From assembly GCA_026745465.1 (NCBI GenBank), contig JACYXH010000826.1, positions 1,522,501-1,586,500 of the forward strand: a DNA stretch of 64,000 nt, read 5' to 3'. The translations under genes were made by a program, and so were the position numbers. This document shows, one piece after another, positions 46,249 to 64,000 of the stretch (the first letter of the stretch is position 1; each line of letters begins with the position of its first letter). The notes under the pieces were generated by a model. That model was not told the DNA's origin. It saw nothing but the letters and a program-made list of their open reading frames with translations, and did not search any database. The DNA is from Lota lota. Its lineage: Eukaryota > Chordata > Actinopteri > Gadiformes > Lotidae.

Positions 46249-49200
46249 GGAATGTACCTGGAACATTATTTAGACAGTAAGCATTAAATAGTTATTTGTT
46301 GATGGGAAGGGATTTCGTACCGCGTATTTCAACACTGTCTGTCGATGAGAATGTAATAGGCCCTATCATCCATGCTTGACTCTTGAATTAAACACAGTAG
46401 AGTTTAGACGACCAATCGCGATTAATGTCTTTTGGGCACAGTCTATTTACTGGAATTGTTATATCCTCCCAATAATGGTTGCATTTAGGAAAAACCACGT
46501 AAACATATGAACTAGCTTTACGAAGTTAGCTATATAACTCCTTATTGACTTCAACAGGTGATCTTTGTTTTTATTTAGCTACGTTTTATTGTTTGTACAT
46601 TTGATTATTCCCCAATCTGATCCCCGCGGCATACATCCCATTTGGTGGTTTATGATTGCAATTCTCTTTTATATGAATGCCTATTGCCCGATTCCTATTT
46701 ATTAGAAAGCATATAACTTACTGTTGCCTTTTATTTTACAACACCAGGCATAGAGAATTTGCCATTCGAATTGCAGAGAAACTTCAATTTGATGCGGGAC
46801 CTAGACCAACGGACAGAGGGTATGGTTCATACATAGCTAATACATTATTGTTTGTTTTGTATCCACGAGAATGTAGTGCTTCACACAATTTAACCTCAAC
46901 TGTGAGAATGAAAAAAAAGTTGATTTGTAGTCTGTAGTCCAGGTAATAGCCATTGCTTAACGCTTACTAGTTGAAAAGTTTATGTTAACTCCGGCATCAC
47001 GCCTCGGTGTGTATGTCTTCTATGGAATAGCATAATAATTCAGTCAAAGTACCATTTCACAAAGCCATTCTACTTTGCTCCACAGATCTTAAAGGACAAA
47101 TAGACTCCCTGGCCAAGGAGTACACTTCCAATGCCAGAACTCTATCTTCGGAGCAAAAGCTCTCCATACTGAGACAGATTCAGCAGTCATACAGTAAATG
47201 CAAAGAGTTTGGTGATGATAAGGTGCAGCTGGCAATGCAGACATATGAGATGGTGAGTACAAGTTAGTGCCCTAACATAGGCATTCTGCAGGCAACAGAC
47301 TATAAGGTTCCACAAAAAAGTGAAAATGTTTACATTTTATGTTTGGTAATACAAATAATGTTTACACAATTGAGAATATTTCTTTAGGCTATCATTTTCC
47401 CCATTCAAGAAATTGGCTATATTGGATCCCAGAAAATGGTGGTTAGCTTCAACTTAATTTATACACAACCATATGAGGTTTTCTTCTATTGTTTTCTTCA
47501 GGTTGACAAGCACATCCGGCGGCTGGATACAGACCTGGCCCGGTTCGAGGCTGACCTGAAGGAGAAACAGATTGAGAGCACTGACTATGATTCTACCTCC
47601 AGTAAGGGAAAGAAAAGTAAGTGTTTCCTGGTTTTGCCATAATAGAACCCTTCACGACTGACCTTAAATGTAAACATTAGTCGATTACTCACTCCCATTA
47701 CTTTGGTAATGTATATTTGGGACTGAGGTCAAACACAACCTATTCACTTCCATTTATTTGTAATACAGTACTATCAAGCCAGACTTGCCAACTATCTTTG
47801 TGGTATAAGGAGATTTAATCCACAATCATGGTGAATGGTTTGTTATTAAGCCAATGTTGAAAACCAAGGTCTGCTTTGGTACCTTATCGTCTGCCTTGTT
47901 GTTTGATCTTTCAGCTGAAGCAAGGCAAAAGGAGAAGAAGATGGCTAAAACTAGGTCTAAAGTGAAGAGCTCGGATGAGGATGGCAGTCCCAAGAGTGCA
48001 CAGAAGAAAGTCAAACTCCTCCAACCGTGCGTATCATCTTGAATGAGCCTTCTTCGCAGACTTCTCTAGTTAATGTCTTCAGTCAGCATGTTTATGATTG
48101 GTTATTATGGTAGTCCTGTTATTCAAGTACTCAAGACATTATGTATTCTTACAACTTTAGACTCTCAATGATCCCCCACTGTTGTTTTATTCACCAGAGG
48201 AGAGTTCAATGCTCCAGCTTCCAACTTTGGCAACGTGCATCCTTCAGATGTGTTGGACATGCCTGTGGACCCCAACGAGCCCACCTACTGTCTGTGCCAC
48301 CAGGTCTCCTATGGGGAGATGATCGGCTGTGATAACACTGACGTAAGTCTCATTCACAATTCTGGGTTTGACACTTGTCGTGGAAATATTAATCGTAACT
48401 ATAAAATACATTTATATACAAATTATATTAACCTTGTTTATATAATTACTAGTCAATTGAAAATTAATTTGTATACATTCTCCTTGGACCTAGAGATGTC
48501 TCCCTTCCTCTCTGTAATTGAAAGGTGTTAAGATAGTTTGCATTTGCGTTGCCACTGTAGCCACGAGGTCTGATACTGAGGCAATGCCAATCTACTGACT
48601 TCTTTGTTGTGCAGATTCCTTTAACTGTCCACTTCACCCATAGTGTATTGCAAATTAACTTGGTCTCTCCCGCCATGGCCAATCCTAAACGCTCCACGAT
48701 GGTCACTCCCCTTCACCTTTGTTTCCTTTGTTGTTACTGCCCACGATGTGAAGGTTTCCCTATAGGAATCATGTACACCCATTGTCTCATTGAATGTATG
48801 CTTGGCTAGGCCATTTCTAACAAATTACACTCAGATAATAGCTCTTAAATCTTACCTACAGAACCTTTACGTGTTTCTGCTATACTTAACCCAACCTGCT
48901 CCTTAATTCCCTGTTCCCCTCTTACTTCACTGAGAAATTCTTAATTTAAGCGTCTCCTACAATAACTATACATACTGGTAAAGTTCAGTTGATGAAATTA
49001 AAGCAATGACCACAGATCTTAGTTTGCTTGACATTTGTCTTGATGATTCCAGTGTTCCATCGAGTGGTTCCATTTCGCTTGTGTGGGTCTGACAACCAAA
49101 CCACGTGGGAAATGGTAAGGAAGCCCTCAACCGAAAGAGAAGCTGTTAACTTAACTTTTTCATATTTCATATTATAACAGTTTAATCAATTCCCATTGAA

Positions 49201-49288
49201 CACGATTAACACCAGTTTGACACAGAATTATTGTTTCATTTCACATAGGTATTGTCCACGCTGCTCTCAAGACCGAAAGAGAAAATAA
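46240..49288 (+). CDS. ing4: Inhibitor of growth protein 4
   Basis: This is the H3K4me3-reading subunit of the HBO1 histone acetyltransferase complex. Eight exons, all in phase: 46240-46276, 46748-46819, 47086-47252, 47502-47616, 47915-48026, 48198-48342, 49053-49114 and 49249-49288. They give 249 aa, the same length as human ING4. The N-terminus [13 protein letters not shown] and the segment around [19 protein letters not shown] form the dimerising coiled-coil ING domain. A Lys-rich central nuclear-localisation region follows. The PHD finger begins [18 protein letters not shown], continues [17 protein letters not shown] and closes with YCPRCSQ; all Zn ligands are present. The protein ends KRK. 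The start codon lies in a YY1-like AAGATGGCGGC context. An AATAAA is at 49598-49603. ing4 is directly followed by ncapd2, as in human 12p13. Confidence 0.98.
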
Positions 49289-50667
49289 AATGACTTTGTT
49301 AGTGAAACAAAAGAACTCTGAGAACAGATTGAATAGATGGAAAATGGCTGGAATAGTATTTTCAACATTAGTTATTAGTACGTTTTACATATTTCTTAAT
49401 GTTTGGTGCTTTATTGGTTAACATTTTTGATGGCCTTGGTCTGATGCAGTGTATGAAGGAGACTAATGGTTACAACTGTATTTAAAATTTCATATTTGAA
49501 ATGGTTGAATTTCTTTTTTTATTTACTTTGGTGCTCATTGTAATGTTTTGTTGTAGGTATTTTTTGTTATTTTTTACATTTTGTTATACAAATGAAAAAT
49601 AAACACTACATTTGCCCCTAATAGTTAGACATTTACAAATGCCATAACACTGATATCAATATTGCCGTGTATGACTACACAATTCTCTAAAATAGCTTTT
49701 CAATTAATAACTTTTATTTTTATTTTACATTAATTTCCTATGTTTAGCTCTAGCTTTTTTTTGAATGACAATGAGTAGGGTGAGAAAGTTAAGACCAATG
49801 CTGCATTTTGACAGTATTACGTTTTGGTAGTAAATTGAAATTGTCGTTTTAAAGATTTGATTGAGTGTTGAATGGAAAATAAGACATTTCATGAGGGAAG
49901 TATTGCCATTCCTGTAGCTGAAACATTTGTACTAGGGAGAGGGTGTTGATTATGTTTTCAATTATTTGAATACAGCTACTACCTCAACAACGTGTCTGCG
50001 TTCTATTTTGAATGGCTTTTTTGCAGAATACCAACGACATTATATGTGGTGACCTGTTTTGGTAGAGGTCGGCATACTTTCTTGGTGCTGTCGTGCTATC
50101 GTTTTCCGCTAGGTGGCACACTATCCCTAAAACGTGGTTCTAAACGGGAACTGTAGAGGCGGGTCAATACATGACGTCACTGGTCCAGTTATTTGGCGCG
50201 ATGTCTAGACGTATTTCAAACACTAGTTTCAAACCGTTTGGGGAGAGTCAACTACTAGGCCAGGGGTCCCGTCTTCAGTCGTCCCAACTGTGGCTCATAA
50301 GGCTACCCACAACACTGGTGAGTACTTTAACATATGGTTATTTGGTTTTAACTTTGACCAGCCGTGACTAATTTCTGCTGATGATAAGCATGGGAAAAAC
50401 AAAGCTAACGCGAGTGGACATGCCAACATTATTGTCATTGGTTGCTAGCACATTAGGCTAAATTTCCACGATAATATGGCGTTAGCGTTTAATACTACTT
50501 TTACAATCGGATCCGAGCCGACATATACATACAACAGTGTATAGTTAATTCTTAAGTCGTAACTTTTTTTTACCAAGATTGGAGGGCTTATGGCCAGCAC
50601 ATCTTTGTCACAATCGAACCAGATCTACTTTCTTTGTTGAGTAAGTTGATGTTGTTGTACTACAGAG
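49289..50667 (+). other. ing4 3'UTR and ncapd2 promoter/5'UTR interval
   Basis: The ing4 polyadenylation signal AATAAA is at 49598-49603. A non-coding ncapd2 first exon probably ends at donor 50317 (CTG|GTGAG), and its intron ends at acceptor 50665, three bases before the start codon. Confidence 0.6.
50172..50230 (+). promoter_or_regulatory. ncapd2 promoter elements: CRE, E2F-like, CHR-like
   Basis: A consensus CRE TGACGTCA is at 50172-50179 and an E2F-like TTTGGCGC at 50192-50199. Two TTCAAA (TTTGAA on the other strand, CHR-like) lie at about 50214-50219 and 50228-50233. The combination suits a cell-cycle gene controlled by E2F/DREAM. Confidence 0.5.
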
Positions 50668-53600
50668 ATGTCTTGGGACTTCTTTGTACCTGTCTGCGTG
50701 GGCGACCTCGTGAAAACCGGGGGTATCAACCAGTATGTGGTTCAGGATGTAGTCTACCCGAAACATATACCATCCCACCTCAACAGTAAGTAGTAAGATG
50801 GCGCAGAATATGGGGTATTTATGCATTACAAATTATATATTTTGTTTAACCTTACTGTATTGTTTCTGAACGTTATACTTCTCAAACAGGTTTCAAGTCC
50901 GCATTAAGAAGCCAGGGGCCGTCGTGTATCTTGGAGCACTTCGACACTGGTTACAGTGTGCTACAGTGAGTCTAGCAATCTACACCTGCCTTTTTTATTT
51001 GTCTCCTCGTGAATTTAAACCATTTTGGCATTGTTCCAAAATCATGTTTCTCTCTTTAAGGCACAGCAACGCAGTGGACTTGAGCATCAAAGAGGACACT
51101 CTGGAATTACTCATACAAGGTCAGATTTTCTACATGTTTGCATGAACATCAATGGATCAAAAATGTGATTTCATAATGTAGTAATTAACAGTCTCAACCT
51201 CCCCCCTTTCATTATTTTACAGTTGTGAGTGGCCTTTCTGTGGCCTTGCCTGCATTGCTCATCTCCACTAACCTCTCAGCCGCAGACCGCAAGGAGCAGC
51301 TAAATGCAGTGAAGATGGGTGTATTTTTACTCTGCAAACTTACAGAGGTGCTTGAGAGCGACTCCTGCAGACAAAGTATTGTAACTGCACCAGGCAAGGT
51401 ATGGATGCGAGGGGGTGTACTCCACTTTAAGTACAATGAACAGTAGCAGCTGTTATTTTTATTTATTTTTTATCTTTGAGAGTACTTTAATGCCCAGTGA
51501 TGAGATCATGGCATTTATGAGCTTGTCGGCCCAAGAGATCTTGCTCTAATGCCACCTGGTTGGTGGGTAATCTTGGCGGTGTGACGGAGCCGTGTTGCAC
51601 TGCTGTAAGGGCTCACCTACAGTCATTTAGGACCCTCCACTTTCTGTCCTCTGAGTAGAAATACAGATGGACACGTGGTAGGTCTCAGACAGTGTGTCTG
51701 TCGTCTTTTTTGTGAATGATTTATGAATGTATATGTATCAGGTGGCAAGAAGCAAGTCTCTGTTGAGGGTCTTTTGAAAGCGATGAATCTCATTCTTTGG
51801 TAATCTGAGGGCAAATGCAAAAAACAAGTGTACAGAAAACAGCATATCACTTGTTTGCAATGTTTAGATATATTTTGCTCTTACCATAACAGGCAGGCAA
51901 AAAGGCCAAGGCTGGAGAAGGTCTGGCACAGTGGGACTCTGAGAGGGAAACGGTGCTGCAGGCCCTGGTACAACTCCTCCAGCTGGATATCCGTGCCCTC
52001 TGGAGCCTGTCCCTGGTGGAGGAAGAGTTCATCAGGTACACAACTGCTGGTCTCGTGCTGCAGCCCAGACCGTTGTTTAACATTGTTTGTTTAATGGGAG
52101 ATGACGAGTGTTCCGGCTTCTGCAATAATTATTTTTATACAGTGTAGTTAAGAATGAACATCCTCTCTCTGGATCTGTTCCAATAGCTGTGTGACATGCT
52201 GCTGCTACAAGCTCCTTGAGAACCCGACCATCAGCCACGTGAAGAGCAAGCCCACCAGGGATGCAGTCATCCACCTGCTAGGGCTGCTGATAAAGAAGTA
52301 CAACCACCTACTGGGTTAGTCACGTTATCATCATATTCAGAAGTCTTTAAAGCTAAACCAGAACCAAACCAGGAAATACGCCCAATTGGTATGCTCGAAC
52401 AAGACGCCTTCTTCATTAAACGAGGTTCATGCCTGACTTTGTACTCAACTCAAATATCCTCTTCCCACCCACTGCCTTTTGCTGTTCTCCACAGGTGCAA
52501 GTGTCAAAGTGATTCAGTTGCTGCAGCACTTTGAGCAGCTGTCCTCTGTGTGTGCTCAGGCGGTCTCTGTGTGGAGCACAGAGTATGGAGTCAGGGCTAT
52601 AATAGGAGAGGTCATACGGTAAGGGACAATCTTTTCTAAGGACTGTTTTTTTTTATGCACTTTCTTTTGGCTTCAAATATTTGGGTTTGTTCGCGCAATA
52701 CATTTATGTATACATCAATACATATGCATTTTCTTAGTCACGTCAATTTCATTTGTATAGCCCTTAATCCCAGTTAGTCTCAAAGGGCATCACAGGCCAC
52801 ATTAGGATACCTGTTAATCCTTTCCCCAAAAGAGCGAGCAAGAAACATAATTATAATGGAAGAAACCTTGAAGGCGTGCATTTGGGACTCCCTGAAACGC
52901 ATACATATGATACTTATGGTCATTGTGAGGCTAACAAATGGATATTTGAACGGTTGACCTTTTTGCCTAATTAAGGGAGATCGGTCAGAAGTCCAGTGAG
53001 GAGCTCGCTAGAGAAGGGTCAGGGGTCAAGGCCTTCTCTTCTTTCCTGTCGGAATTGAGTTCCCTGGTGCCTGAATTGATTATCCCCAACATCAGTTTCC
53101 TCATCACGCACTTGGAAGGAGAGGTGAGACCAACACACCTCAAGATGGTGAACCCAAAATCAATTTGCATGCAATTTTGTTACTGTTACTGAAATAAGAC
53201 CATCATTTAGAGAAAACAGGAGTAAAATCCAATGTTTTTGCCAGTCTCCGCCGACCAGTTTGCTCCACCTGGAACGCAGCTTACGTTCTTTTCGTGACGT
53301 CGAATGGCCTTTTAGTATACTTTTTGATGTCCTGACGATGGGACCCCTGCGTGAGTGTGTGTGTGTGGCACTGTCTGAGCAGTGGTTCATTTGGATGTTC
53401 ACGTTCGAGAGGGCTATCCTTCCCGGACACTTAAAGTATAACGCCTCCGTGTGGGAAGCTTTTCATATAAAACATCGCTCATGCACATCAACCTTTTTTT
53501 GTTTTATTATCTCATAGTGTTCGAATTCCAGCTGAAACAGTGGTTCACTTACACTTTATAAACCGTGATTAGGTGTACAACAGTGTAACATGTTTGAATG

Positions 53601-56600
53601 GCCCTTTTATGTTGAATGTGGTTACTGACACTATAAATGCATCAAACAAAATTCAGTTTATTGGTAGAAAGTGCCTGACTGTATTTGGCCTAGTATAATG
53701 TAGTAGCCCTTGTGTTAGATTCCCAGCCGTGAGGAACTGGTTAGATCCCTAATGGCCACAGCATCTGTAGGCATCCACGAGCAAGATGCCTTACCCTGAC
53801 CTGCTCCTAAATGTCCTTTATCTTAATTCAATGTGCATCGCTTTGGATAAAGTTGCTACAACTAAATGCTATGTTCCATCTGTTAACCAGAGCAACAACA
53901 TGCGTGTGGCGGTGTGTGAGGTACTGGGAGACATCCTAGTGCGGGTCCTGTGCGGAGACGGTCTGGACGAGGCTGGTAAAGCGGACCGCGACCGCTTCTT
54001 CGACACGCTGCAGGAGCATCTGCATGACACGCACTCCCATGTTCGGGCGCGCGTGCTGCAGGTCTACACGCGCATTGTCAACAGCAAGGTTAGTTTGCCC
54101 TGTCGTCACCAAAAGCCACTGCCACGACATTTTTATGGCTCTATTGTTGAATATTGCTCTGTGTTCTGCCTGCCAGGCGTTGCCATTGTGCCGGTACAGT
54201 GAGGTGATGGGGCTGGCTGTGGGGAGGCTGATGGACAAATCTATAAATGTAGTGAAGAGTGCCATCCAGTTGCTGGCGGCCTTCATTGCTCATAACCCCT
54301 ATAGCTGCAAGGTAATTAAGACCTAGAACACCGTAAGATGTAAAGTTCCCTTTCCTGTGGTCCTTAGTTTTGAGTGTTGTGTTTCAGTTGAGCAGTGCAG
54401 ATCTGAAGAACCCTCTGGAGAAGGAGACGACGAAACTCAAAGAGCTGAAGGAGAAACTGGAAGGCAAAGCACCCGGTAAACAAACACTTTAATGCCTCAA
54501 AAGCATCTCTTCAACTTAACCGCTCATCCACCATGCCCAGTGATGATACCAAGGCAACTGTGAGCTCATTGAACCAGGGGGCTGGGTTGTCCTTGTCCTG
54601 ACTGGCTGGTAATCTTGGCCGTGCAGTGAAGGTTTACTGCTCGGCTGTAAGGGCTGGCCTACAGTGACAGGCTCCTCCCACTATGACCCCACTTTCAAAG
54701 ATACTTAAGTCGGGTAATAATGAGGAGGATGCTAACAGCGTGTGTGTTTGTGTGTGTGTACGTCAGGCAAGGCGTTTACCCAGCTCTCGCTGTTTGATGT
54801 GCCATGAGCTTCTTCTTTGGTAATCTGAGGGTGAGCTCTGAATTTGGAGCTAGGTTGACATTGTTGTTGCAGCAAGTCATTTATTGATCAATTATTTAAT
54901 CGTATGTCTCACTGTCTTGAGTGCACTGCATTGCATGCTTTCTCCTTAGGCATATTTGATGAAGTCTCCATAAATGCCTGCTAAATTATAGGTTATGGCA
55001 AATCCCTAGTACCCGTCCATATGATGTGTGAATCCTGAGACCTCATCAATCGCAAACGACAGCCTTTGAAAAAAATTAGCTTTTTAACATATTTATTTTT
55101 TTAACTGAACTGATATTTACATAAAAATGCAGCAGTGAGGTCCATTCATGCGTAAAGTGTGTATTTAAAAATTATGATTTGAAAAATGTTCCCTGCAATC
55201 GTTAATCTTGAATTATTTTGCTTGGTGGGGTCCAGCCTGTGTTCTGCATGTTGATGTTTATACTGTTCCTCGCTGATGTTCCTTGCCAGTGGCAGTCATA
55301 AGGGCGTCAGAGCTGTGGGATGCCATGGAGCCTGAGCTGCTGACCACTGCCAGGGCTGTGTTGGAGCCCACCAGTGCAGAACAGGAAGACATGGGGGCTG
55401 AGGAAGAGAAAGAGGTGGTGGAGCAAGAGTTGGAGGAGGCACAAGATGACAGGGCAACAGCTGTGCAGATTGCACAGTTACTGCGCGTCAATAAATACCG
55501 GTGAGTTTTGTGAAATACAATATCGGCCCATTTAACGTTCTGATTTTTCTAACTATTTTGATTGCCGATTCAACATTTTGCCCAGTGATGATACCAAGGC
55601 GAATGTGAGCTCATTGAACCAGGGGGCTGGGTTGTCCTTGTCCTGACTGGCTGGTAATCTTGGCCGTGCAGTGAAGGTTTACTGCTCGGCTGTAAGGGCT
55701 GGCCTACAGTGACAGGCTCCTCCCACTATGATCCCACTTTCAAAGATACTTAAGTCGGGTAATAATGAGGAGGATGCCAACAGCGTGTGTGTTTGTGTGT
55801 GTGTACGTCAGGCAAGGCGTTTACCCAGCTCCCTGTGGTTCGATGTGTCATGAGCTTCTTCTTTGATAATCTGAGGGTGAACTGTAGACAAGGAATACAG
55901 CTGGCCAATCATATTTGTCTCCACCTGGGGTCTATATTTGAGTCAGGGTCCAGAATAATTTATCTTCTTTTTACCAGCCATGGATAATTAATCTATCAGC
56001 CAAACAACTGTTTTAATATTTAGCCTAACAATTTCACCTGCCGAATGGTCAACTCTACCATTGGCTGGTGGCAGATGTTAATTTCAGACTGATTTGAGTT
56101 ATGTTGCTTCAACCATGCCATAACTATACCGTCCCAAACCTCCTAATTGAACGTCAGAGGTCCCAGGTAAATAAACTTTTACCTATTACTATTATGTACC
56201 TCTTATATTTGATTTCTTCAGACATGCGGTGCGTCTGTGTATAAAAGCACATGGCAGATTCCCCCAGTCTGAGATGTTCTCTAAACTCGACGATCTCACC
56301 CCCGAGACGGTAATGGAGGCCCTCGCTCTGCTCTTCAAAGGTAAAGGCTGCTCTCGCATACGCTGGTGTGTCTTTATTAAGAGTGAGTGCTCTGCTATGA
56401 AACGCTATGCAGACAGGATCATTCCATTTAATTGAACTGTCCCAATGTGTCATCTTGCGTCAGAAAAATGATTACAGGGTCTAAAAGTTCAACGGTACTT
56501 AATAAGTGCTTTTTAAAATGTACGCTACCAAGGAAAAATGGAACATGGAATAGATTAACATGAAAAAGATAAAGACTAAGTAAATATAATTGAAAACCAG

Positions 56601-59600
56601 AGCCTGGCCAATATATTGGCCTATCACAGATATATCGGCTACATGTTTGCCGATATGAAAACTTTAGAAATGGTGTAGATTAAGTACCGCTTTATAAATC
56701 CTCTACTTTGGTGGTTGACCCTCTAAATGCTTTAACTGAGCACATCCACGTAAACACTCCAACACACCAACAGTTTTACATCATGTGAAGGTTAGTAGCC
56801 CTTTACTGCCTAGAATCCAGTATCAGTCGGGCTCTATTGAAAACGTTCCGCACTTCCTTTTTAATGACTAATTTCCCAGTCAAATGTATTATTTGCACAG
56901 CACAAAATGGAAGTGATCTGACACAAGTGAGGCATGCCAGCTGTTAAGTCGATGCAGACTTTATATGAGGATGAGCCGAAACGTTAATAATCTTATTTAA
57001 TATTTGAGTGTTTCAGATGGACATTTTCTTTAAGCTTGACCGCTAAAAATATATTGTGTCCAACAACCAAATCTGTCTCCAAAATGTCTTAATCGGTCTA
57101 TCAATATCTTCCACCAGGGCCTGACGAAGACTCTGGCGAGCTCAGTCAGAATCTGCCCCCAACCCCTCAGAAGGAGGTGGAGGAAGAAGACTCTGAGCTC
57201 AAGAAACAGGAGATGTTGGTGCAGTACCTCAAAGATACACAAAGCTTTGCCCTGCAGGTGGAGAGGTCCATCTCGGTCATCAACACCATGCTCTACTGCA
57301 AAACCACCTCGGGTACGTAGGAACTGTTATTGGTGAGATTGCAGTGATCATGGGGAATTTTACCTGCTGTTTATTTGTAATGATAGGATTCAAAATGTCA
57401 TTTGGTTTTTACAAGTGTACACGGTAATTTATTTGATAAACTGGTTCTCATCTCATTTACTAGAATTCATAACAATAACCTACTAATTAAAATATATATA
57501 TTTTTTTTAAAGAGGTAACTCCATTAAGTTCAAATATGTATTGTCGTACTCTTATACTGACCGCGTATATGTGTTTCAGTGGTCCAGGAGGCAGTGCAGT
57601 TCTGTGTGACGGTGTGTGAGTTCAGCGTGGCCAACTCTCTGTCCGGGGTGAGGAGGATGCTGCCCTTGGTCTGGTCCACTGACGCCACTATCAAGGACGC
57701 TGTGGTGCAGGCCTACAGACGCCTCTACCTCAACCCCCAGGGAGACTCCACCAGGTAGGTAGCCCACTCTGGGGACACTGGATGACTCACTGGCCATAGT
57801 CGATAACGAAGGACCATGTCATTATGGACTGAAACATGTTTAAATAAATGTTGTCATGTTTGGTTTCAGAATACAAGTTTGATGGTCACATGTCTCACTG
57901 TTAATTTTACAGTGGTAAGATTATCATTTGTATCATTTAAGTGCTTCGACTTGAAAGCAAATGGGTAATCTATTTTACTCCATTACTTAATATGATTATG
58001 GATTACATTTATGTGAACAGTGATATTTCTTCATTATGCTAAGCTATCCAATGCTTCTTACTGCGATCACATCTTTTCCACTCCAAGGCACCATTTCCTC
58101 CATGAAATATGAATTGATGGAGATGCCCTTTTCCCTTCCAGAGCCAAGGCCAACACGCTCGTGGACAGTCTCTCTGAGCTGATGGTGGATGCTTCTTAGG
58201 AACCATCCAATGTCTGGAGGAGATAGTAAGTGCTCTTCTTCTACATCACCCTAATCAAACCCTCCCTGCAAAGCTACAGTTAATAATCGGAATCCACCCG
58301 ACAATATTGGGCGTTTGTTGATATACGGGTCTACAACAGGATATTGGAGTACAACAAAGGAACATTTAAATGAAGTGCTAAATTGGTCATCAGCTTTATT
58401 TTCTTATTCTTTGAGGTCTGACCTGAAATGAGATTACAGAAAAGCGATAATTATCTTTCTGTCAAGGATGGTCCAGTTATGCAACAGAAACACACACGTG
58501 TGTGGGTGTGGGTGTGGGTGTGTGTGTGTGGGTCTCTAACCAGTAACTCGTTTCCCTGCTAGGTGCAGGAGTTCTTTGGCAGTAGCAGCAGTCTCCAGTC
58601 CACCGTGGTCCAGGTGCTGTGGGAGCGCTTCACTGGCAAACGAGAGACTTCGCCGCTCCACAGAAGGGCTGCGGTGATACTGCTGGGCATGGCTGCACGG
58701 TACTGCCAAGTTGTCTTTTATACGAGCACCGTGATTAAGTTATACATGTCTTCCTTACATTTGCAATCAATACCACAATTAACTTTTTAAAAGAAAAGAC
58801 TAGAAGGCTGAGGATTGTTGAAATGGATTGAAAGAGTGGAGAACCGTGATTTAAACTTCTGTAAATGCAAACGATTTTGATGAGCTCGTAGTCGCGGAGA
58901 TTAAAAGATGGGGACGTTGTTTATTTACTATCCAGCAGTGCGTTAGACCAACTAGGCAACAAGGTAACGTTGCAAATGTTTGTTCACTTGGTATATCAAG
59001 ACTTAAAACAAAGTGATCACAAGCAGAGGATGACTTAGGTAAAGTTAATTTATTGCATTAAAATAAATATGAACTTTGCAAAACATCATGAACACAGTAG
59101 AGCTGTCAATCTTCCTCTATATCCCATTCGAATTTTATTCCTTATACATTTTTATATTCAAATTGTTCATGCAAAACATTAGCCTATTAGTAATACTTAC
59201 TATGTACCTTTACACTGTATACACAGGTTTGTGTATACCACAATGCCACTATTAAACGTTCTGCCCACTAGAGGGCATTTTACTAATAAACATTTCTTTA
59301 TTGCCAAGGAAATATTAGGCACAGAAGGATATTGCATTAACACACCCACTTATCATAATCCTCTTCATCCACGAACAGCCATTCGCTACACTATTTAACT
59401 CTTGGATTAAAAAGTAAAACTCCAGGATAATTGAATCCTCTAAATACATAGCATATTTTGGTTAAAGGACGGAGCATAATCTCATCTTCTCTAAGCTATA
59501 TAGGTTGAGTATTCCATCCGTCTTTTCACCGCGATTATTATGGGTATATGCCACAGATTCGCATCGCGGCTGATGTAAATAGTTTTTAACATGCGTGTAG

Positions 59601-62600
59601 ACTTTATTGTTCATCAGGTGTGACGTGAGAAAAGCATTTTGTTTTCACATGCGAGTAGGCTGAGGCGAGAAGGGCCAGAGTCCCTTTTATTAGAGTAAGT
59701 TTTGGAGATAAATGTTGAGCTTTTTCTCTTTGATACGCTCGCACGCTCTCACTCCGCAGTAATTTAAAGGAACTCTGTTAGCAATGGCACTCACATAGCG
59801 TCAAGATAACGCTGCTTTGTTTTTATTGCATACATATTTTTATAGCTAATATTATTTACTGGATTTCGTTTTATAAATTTTTGGGCCTGACGGGGCCTGT
59901 ACAATTATAGGGGAACCACTGGTATTTATACCCCTTCTGTGAGGCGGAATAAGGGGATTTTCTGCAGCGAGGAGCTGCCATGTTTTCCAATATAAAAACA
60001 TTGATCCTCTTGCTGGCTTCTCAATCTATTTATCAACCACAACTTGGCTCTGTCTGATGTAAGAATTTTGTATCGTTAAAGAAAGGATTGTTGAGCCCTA
60101 TGATGCAGCAAAGGCTTATGTGAGCTTACTGTACTGGAATACCATGTTTCCGTACATGGAGTACCCTGTCTGGTAGTCTGCAAAGTGCAGCAGAGGTTTG
60201 CTGTATTATTGATGGCCAGTCCACATCAGCCATGTGTATCCACCTGCCTACCTGGATCCCCATAGAGATAGATGGAGGGTGTTAGAGGCAGGAGGGTGAC
60301 AGTGAATCGAATGCTTTGAACTATGTAATCTCCAGTGGGAAGGTACCCAACAGTTGGCAATGTGCTCCTAGGTAATCTGAGGGTGACTCATTCTTCTCAT
60401 CAATATGCGCTATATTGGACCAGAACATTAATTGCCTTCAGGGTTGTGGGCTAAGTCAAGTAGATTCTTGAGGAAAAGGTACATGATTAGTAACCCTAAA
60501 TATAAATGCATACAAGGATACAAGGCTTATTGTCATTAGGCAGAACCATAATCACTATACTGAGGCTCCCCCAAGTCACGACCACATAACTCCTGGCTCC
60601 TTGCCAGCGTGATGCACTGAATGTAGCTTACTACAACGCTGCTCCTCAATGTACCTCAAAGGATTTCTGAAGGGAAGCGCGAGCTAGAGGGTAAAGAGTC
60701 TATCTGCAGTCCACCCACGCTGCCGCTCTTCAGCCAGCCAGGAGCATTTAGAACATATTTAATCTTGCATACTTCTGCAAACCCTGCCTCCCACGTACAT
60801 TATGTGGACAGCAGGCAGGCCTGGCCTCTGAGGTTAACTAGTAAACCTGTAGGGCAAACATGCTGAGAAATTACCTCGAGCCTGCGGTCTGTCTGGCCGT
60901 GTTGTCCCCAGGAAAGCTTCAAGACAGGTTTTTTTGGTAAGTATTTGTTTTATTGATTTGGTATCCATGCGAGTTGCAGAATAGAGAGACAAAACTGACA
61001 AGTGGTTTCCTGGAAAGATTGAGCTTGTCTTAGAGCTTGTACAGTGTAGATTCAGTAGCTGGACACGTGCAATCTGATAATTGTTCATTACTTTTAGATC
61101 TAGCAGTCTCAGTTTTGTAAACTTAAAATTGCATCTACAGGACATTTAAGGACTTTGCTTTCAGCCCGCATTGTAGCAGCGCTCTGGTATAGCCGAAAAC
61201 GAATAAATATTTAATAATAATGAATAAAATATATTTTATGATATTGGAAATACAATTAATAGGGTACTTTTTTTTCATGTAAGCATCCCACTTTCCCCCT
61301 ATATCACATTTTATTTGTATGTGCTAAAGCGCATAGTCAATTCTAATTCAGACAACTTTATTTATCCCAAGAAGGGCAATTCATTAGGGGCTTTCCCAGT
61401 CCATTTATACGACTTAAGACTTAAACTCACAGACAAGATAGTGATATGTCGGAGGCTACAGATCAACGTACGTAGGTCAGTACAAGATGACAACGAGCAG
61501 CAGTAAATAAAATGAATACAATTTCATGTTTCGTATAAATAACCAAGTTTAAGGAATGTAACATTATTTAAATTGACCACTGTCAGCGTTTAATAGCTTG
61601 ATAGTGGAAGGAGTGAAGGACTTAGTGTAGCGGCTTGTTCTGCTTAGGGGCACCTTACCTAAGGCCTGGGGGCATTACAAGGAATTCACTGGACAGAACA
61701 TGGTCCGATTGGCTGATAATTCTCTTTGCTTTCTGGGCCGCCTGTTTCTCCAGGAGGTCTCTCGGCTGTGCTCCAATTATCTTGGCGCAGACTTTGACCA
61801 TATACCATTCAAGCTATTCTGGTCCTTCACAGACAACCCATTAAACCAACAAATGAAAAAGGTAGACTTTCAATTAATGCTTGATAAAGATTGCATACGA
61901 TTTTTGACACATTAACGTCAAGTAAGTTATCACATCATTCGACAAAGGCAGGTAGGGCACAAACATGATCGGACTCCGAACCATGGAGAGGAGACAATAG
62001 GGCGGTGTCGTCAGAGGATTTCATAAAGCCCTGTTGAGTTATTTGTATACATAATAAAAAGCAGGGGGGACAGGACACAATCCTGGGGTGAGTCCATATT
62101 TGAGACCTTGATGTTGGTCTGATGTGTCTATTCACCAATACCTGCTGGATTCAGAGAAATCGGAATAAAAGTCTCCCATGAGATTTCGTTTCTGGAGGTG
62201 CTTATAGATGCTGTTGAAAATGAAGAGCTTTGCATCCTTTACTAGCTTGGTAAGGTAACTGAAGGGGTCGAAGTTGATCAATCAATGAGGGAGACAACCA
62301 TAGCTTTTAAAATGTTCTCAAATGATAAAGGATGTGAGCGCAACAGGTCAAATAATTTTGTTCCTTCAGGGATTTTGATTTTGGTATGATATTACAGTGG
62401 ATGTTTTCCAGATTGTAGGTATCTGGCCTATCATCATCTTTATCCCCATCAATTACTTCAACAGGGCCGAAAGGGAGGTGGTGCTCAGTAATGTGGAAAC
62501 CTTCTGCAACGTGGCTCTGGGGGAGAAGGTGGCAGAAGACTTCCTGCTGGCCAGAGATGTGGTCATCACCATCAGCAGCATCACAGATCACGTCAGGGTA

Positions 62601-63703
62601 AGCACAATTAACAGTTAAATGGTTAGTTTGAATGACTATTTAGGAATTACCATTGATTGAATGCATACATTCTTTTTGTACCAACACCATTTTCTAGCAA
62701 TCAAAGAATGCCCCCTTCAGACTGTCCCACAACCACCAGCTGTTCACCTGCCTTACAAAGGCCATCGCAGAAGGTAAATACATTATCTTGCTGGAAATCT
62801 AGACTGCTTTGTGATTCATAGATTCCACATGCTATTGGACATTAGGACACCTCACACGTGGTACAAAGTAAATTGACTAGCTCTTCCCCTTTACCTCCCA
62901 AGGTGTGGTGAAGGAGGACCCTCACTGGCAGAGTTTCATGGAACAGGCTGTTCGTCTCCTGTACTTCCTGGCTGAGTCCCCCGACCATCTCTGCTCGCTG
63001 CTACTGCAGCAGAGCACTCAGCTCTTATTGGACCAGGTCGCCAAAACTGCAGAAGCCACCAAGGAGACGGTCCAATCCCAAGGCGGCTCGCAGGACTCTC
63101 AGGATTCTACTGAACAAGGTCTCCAAATGTGCTGTGACTGACATCGTTTTAGCAAATTATGATGTTGAATGAATTGGAGAGCTTCGCACATCCAAACTGC
63201 AGTGTTTGTGCGCCGGAGTATGTAAATGTATTAATTGAAAACAAAAACAAAAAGCACTTGCAGCTTCCAATGCAACAGTGGTCAGTACATCTAAACCTGA
63301 TTTTAAGTCTGTCTAAAACCAGTATGTTGTAAATCCTTTACTTTGTCTATTGAAGGCTAGTCTGAAACTTAAAACGGCAAGTTTCTATGCAATATACAAA
63401 TCCAGTTGTAATGAAAGAACTAAAATGTATTTCTGGAGAAGCCTGTTTTGTTGTTGTTGCTGCTGCTTCATTGCCGTATCCTGGACAGCCATTGTCAGCC
63501 GTGCTCCCTGGTAGTAAATCCTGTGTTCCTGTGTGTTGGCTGTAGTGAGCAGCGTGAGCCTGGCCCAGCTGCTGTCTCTGTGCGGTTGTGTGGCTTTCTG
63601 GCAGGTGTCCCACCTGGAGGGGAGTGTGAGCGCTGAGCTGCGGAGGAGGAGAAGAGAAACTGAGGAGAGGGAGGAGAAGGAAAAGAGGCCTTCGAAATCT
63701 AAG
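50668..63703 (+). CDS. ncapd2: Condensin I subunit D2 (HEAT-repeat), 5' part, with internal frameshift
   Basis: This is the non-SMC HEAT-repeat subunit of condensin I, needed for mitotic chromosome compaction. Exons seen: 50668-50785, 50890-50965, 51061-51119, 51223-51398, 51893-52035, 52187-52314, 52495-52618, 52976-53123, 53891-54088, 54177-54311, 54388-54475, 55290-55500, 56222-56340, 57118-57312, 57580-57754, 58142-58225, 58563-58699, 62465-62597, 62698-62773, 62903-63118 and 63546-63703. The gene continues past the window. Matches to human NCAPD2 include GGINQYVVQDV, LLQLDIRALW, LAVGRLMDKS, QEMLVQYLQD-like (KQEMLVQYLKD), GVRRMLPLVWS and YLNPQGDS. All phases agree except in exon 16. After DAS the frame runs into TAG (58197-58199); one extra base would restore GTIQCLEEI and the correct phase for exon 17. 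A 5'UTR exon ends at donor 50317. Introns 4, 11, 12 and 17 hold scaRNA-like sequences, and intron 17 (3.8 kb) also holds a LINE relic. Confidence 0.94.
51491..51813 (+). ncRNA. U85/SCARNA10-like C/D-H/ACA scaRNA, copy A
   Basis: This copy lies in ncapd2 intron 4. Box C GTGATGA is at 51497-51503 and box D CTGA at 51805-51808, closed by a perfect terminal stem TGCCC (491-495)/GGGCA (809-813). Ten bases before box D, TCTTTGGTAA (51794-51803) pairs with U5 snRNA loop 1 UUACUAAAGA, with one G-U pair. The base five upstream of box D (G51800) faces U5 C45. An internal hairpin carries AATCTT (51569-51574) and GTAAGGG (51605-51611). These pair with either side of U5 U46, and an ACA lies exactly 14 nt after the start of the 3' guide strand. 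A dual C45/U46 guide is the known role of human U85 (SCARNA10), which I recall as an NCAPD2 intronic RNA. The ends are inferred from the terminal stem. Confidence 0.85.
52739..52810 (+). repeat. Interspersed repeat with TCAAAGGGCATCACAGG motif
   Basis: ATTTGTATAGCCCTTAATCC and GTCTCAAAGGGCATCACAGG resemble a common fish repeat (TATAGCCCTTT...CTCAAAGGGCTTCACAGG). It lies in ncapd2 intron 7. Confidence 0.55.
53184..53300 (+). mobile_element. Diverged arm of the same fold-back family in ncapd2 intron 8
   Basis: TTACTGAAATAAG, then GAGTAAAATCCAATG and TTTTTGCCAGTCTCC, follow the same order and spacing as the gstk1 fold-back arm (TTACTGAAATAAG, GGGGTAAAA, TTTTTGCCATTCTCC). I do not see a matching opposite arm nearby, so this may be a truncated or solo copy. 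Confidence 0.55.
53400..53570 (-). repeat. Unnamed dispersed repeat, ncapd2 intron copy
   Basis: Read on the minus strand this contains AAAGTGTAAGTGAACCACTG, ACTATGAG, GAGCGATG, CGTTATACTTTAAGTGTCC and GGGAAG, in the same order as the copy at 18228-18465 in casp2. It lies just downstream of the diverged fold-back arm, so the two may belong to one larger element. Confidence 0.58.
54534..54833 (+). ncRNA. U85/SCARNA10-like C/D-H/ACA scaRNA, copy B
   Basis: This copy lies in ncapd2 intron 11. Box C GTGATGA is at 54540-54546 and box D CTGA at 54825-54828, with flanking GCCC/GGGT able to pair. The box D guide TCTTTGGTAA keeps G54820 at D-5, opposite U5 C45. The pseudouridylation pocket has AATCTT (54611-54616) and GTAAGGG (54647-54653), with ACA at 54661-54663, again 14 nt on. 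It is nearly identical to copy C but clearly diverged from copy A outside the functional segments. All guide elements for the U5 C45/U46 pair look intact. Confidence 0.86.
55579..55879 (+). ncRNA. U85/SCARNA10-like C/D-H/ACA scaRNA, copy C (altered methylation guide)
   Basis: This copy lies in ncapd2 intron 12 and is a close duplicate of copy B. Box C GTGATGA is at 55585-55591, box D CTGA at 55871-55874. The pocket strands AATCTT (55656-55661) and GTAAGGG (55692-55698) are intact, as is ACA (55706-55708). The box D guide reads TCTTTGATAA: the base at D-5 (55866) is A instead of G, so it would face U5 C45 as an A-C mismatch. It may therefore keep U46 pseudouridylation but lose C45 methylation, be retargeted, or be decaying. 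Confidence 0.8.
60094..60385 (+). ncRNA. Diverged scaRNA-like sequence, copy D (candidate)
   Basis: This candidate lies in ncapd2 intron 17. It shares the frame of copies A-C: AGCCC plus a box C-like ATGATGC (60100-60106, last base C instead of A), TGAGC shortly after, and GGTAATCTGAGGGTGA around box D (CTGA 60377-60380). Overall spacing is similar (about 290 nt). The U5 guide upstream of GGTAA is disrupted (CTCCTAGGTAA) and the internal pocket strands do not match U5. It could be a decayed copy, a scaRNA with another target, or a partial coincidence. Confidence 0.45.
61335..62300 (-). mobile_element. Rex1/L2-like LINE relic in ncapd2 intron 17
   Basis: On the minus strand, an RT fragment near 62135-61960 reads QDCVLSPCFLLCIQITQQGF and then DDTALLSPLHGSESDH. 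This matches the conserved QG(C)VLSPLLF...DDTA region of reverse transcriptase. Downstream (61900-61590) come FICWFNGLSVKDQNSLN, KIIGAQPRDLLEKQAAQKAK, SDHVLSSEF and SRYTKSFTPSTIKLLN, the usual LINE C-terminus. The minus-strand 3' end around 61380-61335 carries the GGATAAATAAAGT tail. Frameshifts show it is inactive. It helps explain the 3.8-kb intron. Confidence 0.82.
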
Positions 63704-64000
63704 GTACACCAGGAAACTATTTACGGTTTGTTTAGTTTGAGCAAAACTATAGTCTTTCTTAGTCCTAGTCTAGGTGATGCAGTATAGGTATAATGAACAT
63801 TGCAGAATCTGCAACCATAAATGATGACTAATCAGTAACTTGTTGCACTGGGTAATGTTTTAATAAAATTGTTTAAGCTTAAAGGTGCAGTTTGTAGAAT
63901 TTAGCAGAACCAAAATGGCAGAGTTGGAATATATTAAGTGTTTTAATTAGTATATAATCGTTGTGTTTTCGTAACTTTAGAATAAGCATTGTGTCTCTCC

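Follow-up and report, generated by a model that had tools for sequence, protein, structure and literature searches.

The 64,000-nucleotide (nt) stretch of Lota lota contig JACYXH010000826.1 that was analysed here, referred to as the window, carries the 5' part of the gene ncapd2. Three introns of this gene each harbour a copy (A, B and C) of what is very probably U85 (SCARNA10), an intron-encoded composite guide RNA of the box C/D-H/ACA type. Thirteen coding exons with AG/GT borders splice to a single open frame of 574 amino acids (Table 1). Its product resembles condensin complex subunit 1 chains (best E-value 5.1e-41) and contains the Pfam domain Cnd1_N (2.3e-39), which bears out the host gene named in an original prediction made from the sequence letters. 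Coding exons 4 and 5 flank copy A, exons 11 and 12 copy B, and exons 12 and 13 copy C; all three copies are on the sense strand of the host. The original prediction had placed the copies in introns 4, 11 and 12, a numbering that is correct when coding exons are counted and that would become 5, 12 and 13 with a 5' untranslated region (UTR) exon that inspection by eye suggests near 50150-50320.

The identity of the three copies is based on profile searches. When the whole window was searched with Rfam release 15 at the curators' cut-offs, three matches were obtained, all of them to RF01296 (snoU85), all on the forward strand and each running end to end along the model (positions 1-329). Their scores exceed the cut-off of 41 bits (Table 1) and their E-values range from 3e-15 to 1.8e-10, and the U85/SCARNA10-type identity that had been proposed is thus upheld for every copy. 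A rerun with laxer filters over positions 48000-64000 again recovered the RF01296 copies, together with four further matches that all fell under their own family cut-offs. In the own genome of the fish (575,287,041 bases in 867 contigs), where 27 of 26,428 first-look candidates were scored and weak copies could be missed, three RF01296 matches reached E <= 0.001, namely A, B and C, and no fourth copy was found at this threshold among the scored candidates. Likewise, the large ncapd2 intron at 53124-53890 gave no U85 match at E up to 10 in a search of the stretch 53100-53900, a negative of note because one pikeperch copy is assigned to intron 9 in print (PMC11788885). The intronic segment 53690-53890 resembles what we take to be the degenerate tail of a teleost short interspersed element. 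Upstream of ncapd2, an exon-like open reading frame at 47031-47267 contains an ING N-terminal domain (Pfam PF12998, 5.9e-10) and points to an ing-type gene.

Table 1. Window positions of the ncapd2 5' part, of the three U85 copies and of their guide elements
Feature	Position	Strand	Evidence
ncapd2 5' part, 13 coding exons, with the three copies in its introns	50668..56340	+	splicing to one open frame; protein matches
U85 copy A, 322 nt, highest-scoring of the three	51492..51813	+	RF01296, 68.7 bits; own-genome search
Copy A H/ACA hairpin 1, U46 pocket (AAUCUU ... GUAAGGG)	51555..51623	+	fold; pairing
Copy A C45 guide and box D (TCTTTGGTAATCTGA)	51794..51808	+	motif position 303; pairing
U85 copy B, 299 nt	54535..54833	+	RF01296, 56.5 bits
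Copy B H/ACA hairpin 1, identical in C	54597..54665	+	fold; pairing
Copy B UG-rich stretch, one nt 3' of ACA	54739..54762	+	sequence scan
Copy B C45 guide and box D	54814..54828	+	motif position 280; pairing
U85 copy C, 300 nt, A at D-5 of the C45 guide	55580..55879	+	RF01296, 52.1 bits; blastn; pairing
Copy C H/ACA hairpin 1, identical to B	55642..55710	+	blastn; pairing
Copy C UG-rich stretch, one nt 3' of ACA	55784..55807	+	sequence scan
Box D of copy C with the altered guide TCTTTGATAA, A facing C45	55860..55874	+	motif; pairing

The internal organization of the copies agrees with this assignment. Each of them has a box C (GTGATGA) near its 5' end and a box D (CTGA) near its 3' end; all start with GCCC, and box D is followed by GGGC in A and by GGGT in B and C. 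Motifs and folds indicate that in every copy boxes C and D enclose a two-hairpin domain ending in ACA. The H/ACA hairpins, six in all, are more stable than their mononucleotide shuffles (z from -2.85 to -3.76, 200 shuffles each), and hairpin 1 shows the typical two-sided pocket. Hairpin 1 of A and that of B align without gaps over 69 nt and, taking the 23 pairs in the fold of B as a reference, 22 are kept, of which 15 are unchanged, five have changed on both sides and two on one side, with a single pair lost in A. Because of these paired double changes, the helix of hairpin 1 can be said to have been maintained through change. The same changes bear on the possibility that the three matches reflect a chance or repeat-driven resemblance, for which one could invoke a microsatellite-like UG stretch in B and C and the presence in the window of GT-rich places, of which eight, counting those of B and C, are on the forward strand and 12 on the reverse strand. 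A chance resemblance is, however, refuted by the model matches in the window and by the own-genome search: the matches are full-length at the E-values given above, and just three emerged from 575 Mb among the candidates scored. Together with double changes that preserve pairing, these data make the probability of such a resemblance next to nil.

The guides were then compared with the U5 RNA of the same fish, with C45 and U46 numbered as in human U5. The own genome holds 47 U5 matches above cut-off and, of the 28 whose sequences were examined, nine are of type I and 19 of type II. The loop reads CUUUUACUAAAG in 27 of these 28 and CUUUUACUGAAG in the remaining one, the type II gene L017, and pairing was computed against one type I representative, one of type II and L017. 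In copies A and B only, box D is preceded by TCTTTGGTAA, which forms 10 consecutive pairs (one of them G.U) with U5 of types I and II and whose G at D-5 faces C45. In parallel, the AATCTT/GTAAGGG pocket around U46, with an ACA exactly 14 nt downstream, is found in all three copies; its side 3' of the target forms six of six pairs with type I U5 and its other side forms seven pairs, two of them G.U, again in all three. The original prediction had described boxes C and D and the U46 pocket as shared, had put a G opposite C45 in A and B, and had named pairing to the own U5 of the species as a check; the motifs are where it saw them, the G faces C45 in both copies, and the guides do fit the own U5 genes, type II with one mismatch in the pocket. 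In the mechanism that we propose, each copy would be trimmed from the debranched intron after splicing, hairpin 1 of every copy would direct pseudouridylation of U5 at U46, and in A and B the element that precedes box D would direct 2'-O-methylation at C45.

As to the U5 genes themselves, those of type I have the stem AAAUCUUU/AAAGAUUU, which the U85 pocket fits fully, and lie on contigs C363 and C382 (loci L001-L008 and L023), being arranged on C363 in tandem with a period of about 716 bases. Those of type II have the stem AAGCCUUU/AAAGACUU and lie on contigs C373, C245, C2, C3, C621, C711 and C781 (loci L009-L022 and L024-L028), in tandem units of about 2.3 kb. In the one type II stretch that was scanned (L032, G000:C373:1792300-1797400), these units of about 2.3 kb contain U1 (on the opposite strand), U2, U5 and U6. 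The U5 loci also carry additional, uncounted U5-like stretches, one of which, in L008, has a changed loop.

The three copies are not equally related. The blastn alignment of B with C spans 300 columns at 96.3% identity, and the 11 differences between them are distributed between hairpin 2 (two, at positions 153 and 199), the C45 guide (one), the region near the 5' end (two) and positions 253-268 (six), with none in hairpin 1. By the same method A aligns with B only piecewise, at 72% over 69 nt and in shorter pieces elsewhere. The spacings from A to B and from B to C are 3043 and 1045 nt. The likeness between B and C extends only 1 nt beyond the 5' end of the model and about 4 nt beyond its 3' end, and their 100-nt flanks are alike only at the level of shuffled sequences, since the observed score is reached by 252 of 300 shuffles for the upstream flank and by 206 of 300 for the downstream one. 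As the likeness is confined to the RNA, either the copying took the RNA alone, or the intron drifts around an RNA that is homogenised or under constraint. The ancestral-type copy is probably A, and B and C would represent a later pair, with copying or ongoing homogenisation limited to an RNA-sized stretch. Likeness that ends so close to the RNA, between flanks no better than shuffles, is also what could be expected if B and C derived from reverse transcription of mature U85 RNA, that is, from retroposition of a small nucleolar RNA (snoRNA) and not from recombination or gene conversion. Yet no stretch of at least five A occurs in the 40 nt that follow B or C, neither copy has an exact repeat longer than 5 nt between the 30 nt upstream and the 40 nt downstream, and two landings in one gene would be unlikely. 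Retroposition is thus rather improbable. A run of six A is present downstream of copy A.

A further aspect concerns the signals for localization. According to two reports, human U85 reaches Cajal bodies via Cajal body (CAB) boxes, and four UG-rich box C/D small Cajal body-specific RNAs (scaRNAs) do so via a UG motif bound by TDP-43 (PMC4041459, PMC6412121). In Lota lota, the terminal loops read GGAG and GUAG in A, and GAAG and AAAG/UAAG in B and C, and are thus NNAG variants only; in A, the last pairs of hairpin 2 coincide in part with a UGAG at 51652, and the UGAG of B and C sits in the stem of hairpin 2. Moreover, B and C carry CGUGUGUGUUUGUGUGUGUGUACG one nt past the ACA box, and the combination of NNAG loops with a UG stretch is absent from the RF01296 consensus of U85. 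It is conceivable that a composite U85 with weakened CAB boxes has, in B and C, gained a UG-repeat stem of the kind by which TDP-43/WDR79 brings pure box C/D guides to Cajal bodies, changing the address label of the RNA, and that C would act as a pseudouridine-only U85, with functions split between copies. A UG-rich stretch is common to B, C and the UG-rich box C/D scaRNAs scaRNA2, 7, 9 and 28; these are, however, C/D scaRNAs, and human U85 showed no shift to the nucleolar fraction on TDP-43 knock-down (PMC6412121, PMC4041459). The sequence of B and C permits a UG hairpin with three standard and six wobble pairs, at a predicted +3.4 kcal/mol, which does not appear in the minimum-energy folds, and the stretch may be a microsatellite. 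Because the hairpin is predicted to be unstable and UG microsatellites are frequent in the window, the UG-stem reading stays speculation, and the whole scheme of a new address and divided functions appears quite unlikely.

Several observations weigh against the view that all three copies are intron-encoded U85 guide RNAs. The last base of the H-box region, ACAGTC in A and ACAGTG in B and C, does not fit ANANNA; B and C end 456 and 342 nt before the end of their introns, compared with 79 nt for A; one side of the pocket forms five of six pairs with U5 of type II, the remaining one being an A.C mismatch located 6 nt 3' of U46; and no perfect ugAG CAB box lies within a loop of the minimum-energy folds of the three copies. 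In addition, copy C has TCTTTGATAA in the place of the C45 guide and is mismatched (A for G) at the exact U5 base to be methylated, an exception that was implicit in the original naming of A and B alone. Because A replaces G opposite C45, the 2'-O-methylation guide of C is probably dead, as judged from its sequence; C is a U85 homologue by the model, but one without a working C45 guide, and is to be set apart from A and B. This mismatch, the lower RF01296 scores of B and C relative to A and their distance from the 3' splice site could all be taken to mean that only A, or only A and B, are functional, and that C, alone or with B, is an RNA-sized duplicate on its way to becoming a pseudogene. 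Such drift is opposed by a hairpin 1 that is identical in B and C and by a hairpin 2 that keeps the same predicted structure in both despite its two differences. It is also at odds with data from pikeperch, where the two copies that are alike reach 98.84-638.7 normalised counts and exceed the odd copy, with its 2.41-31.9, in six of six animals, although these counts come from poly(A)-enriched libraries and are as such weak proof of mature RNA (PMC11788885). Drift towards pseudogenes is therefore possible but unlikely, and the preferred reading is that of three U85 guide RNAs, of which C has lost the match to C45 and all three would be expressed from ncapd2.

Comparison with known systems places these results in context. 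Human U85/SCARNA10 resides in NCAPD2 and targets C45 and U46 of U5, as here and as the original prediction had stated, and the source lists it as one gene, in contrast to the three found here, one of which has a broken C45 guide (PMC3766210). Similarly, chicken GGgCD80 (U85/U89), in NCAPD2 intron 3, shares the host and the U5 C45 guide, and one isoform is listed for it in that source as against three copies in Lota lota (PMC2653536). Box C/D guides are described as being commonly duplicated within a single host gene (PMC2653536, PMC8178906). The closest parallel is offered by pikeperch, for which a 2024 paper lists three U85 transcripts from Ncapd2 introns, with lengths of 315, 325 and 321 nt as against the 322, 299 and 300 nt observed here (PMC11788885). 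The two-plus-one pattern is the same, as two of the pikeperch copies are 91.38% alike and both are about 62% identical to the third, and the printed positions 1364, 4179 and 5288 correspond to spacings of 2815 and 1109 nt, against 3043 and 1045 nt here (PMC11788885). The introns are given as 5, 9 and 12 in pikeperch, compared with 5, 12 and 13 here when the putative UTR exon is counted (PMC11788885). In this comparison, which relies on printed lengths, identities and positions, the spacing favours the same places in both fish, despite the intron 9 in print.

Since the spacing and the two-plus-one pattern are common to both fish, the multiplication of U85 seems to be older than either species. 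Thus, of the original idea that this fish has multiplied a normally single-copy RNA, the three copies stand, but the multiplication is not peculiar to one species, as pikeperch also has three (PMC11788885). The main text of the pikeperch paper contains none of the terms scaRNA, Cajal, duplicat-, paralog, snRNA, pseudourid- and methylat- (PMC11788885), and the titles and abstract openings of the literature searched reveal no other fish with several U85 copies, which is no proof of absence. The present data suggest that the three-copy state is not confined to pikeperch and that it provides a natural series for questions about the number of U5 guide copies that vertebrates retain, about a possible division of labour between copies of an RNA with two activities, and about whether homogenisation within a host gene is limited to the RNA. 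Collectively, the three-copy arrangement is real and well built but largely ordinary, and it is not new in kind because pikeperch shows a like arrangement and the mechanism is a textbook one; what Lota lota adds to the known systems is the likeness of B and C that ends at the RNA, the lost C45 guide of C, and the UG repeat of B and C outside the U85 consensus.

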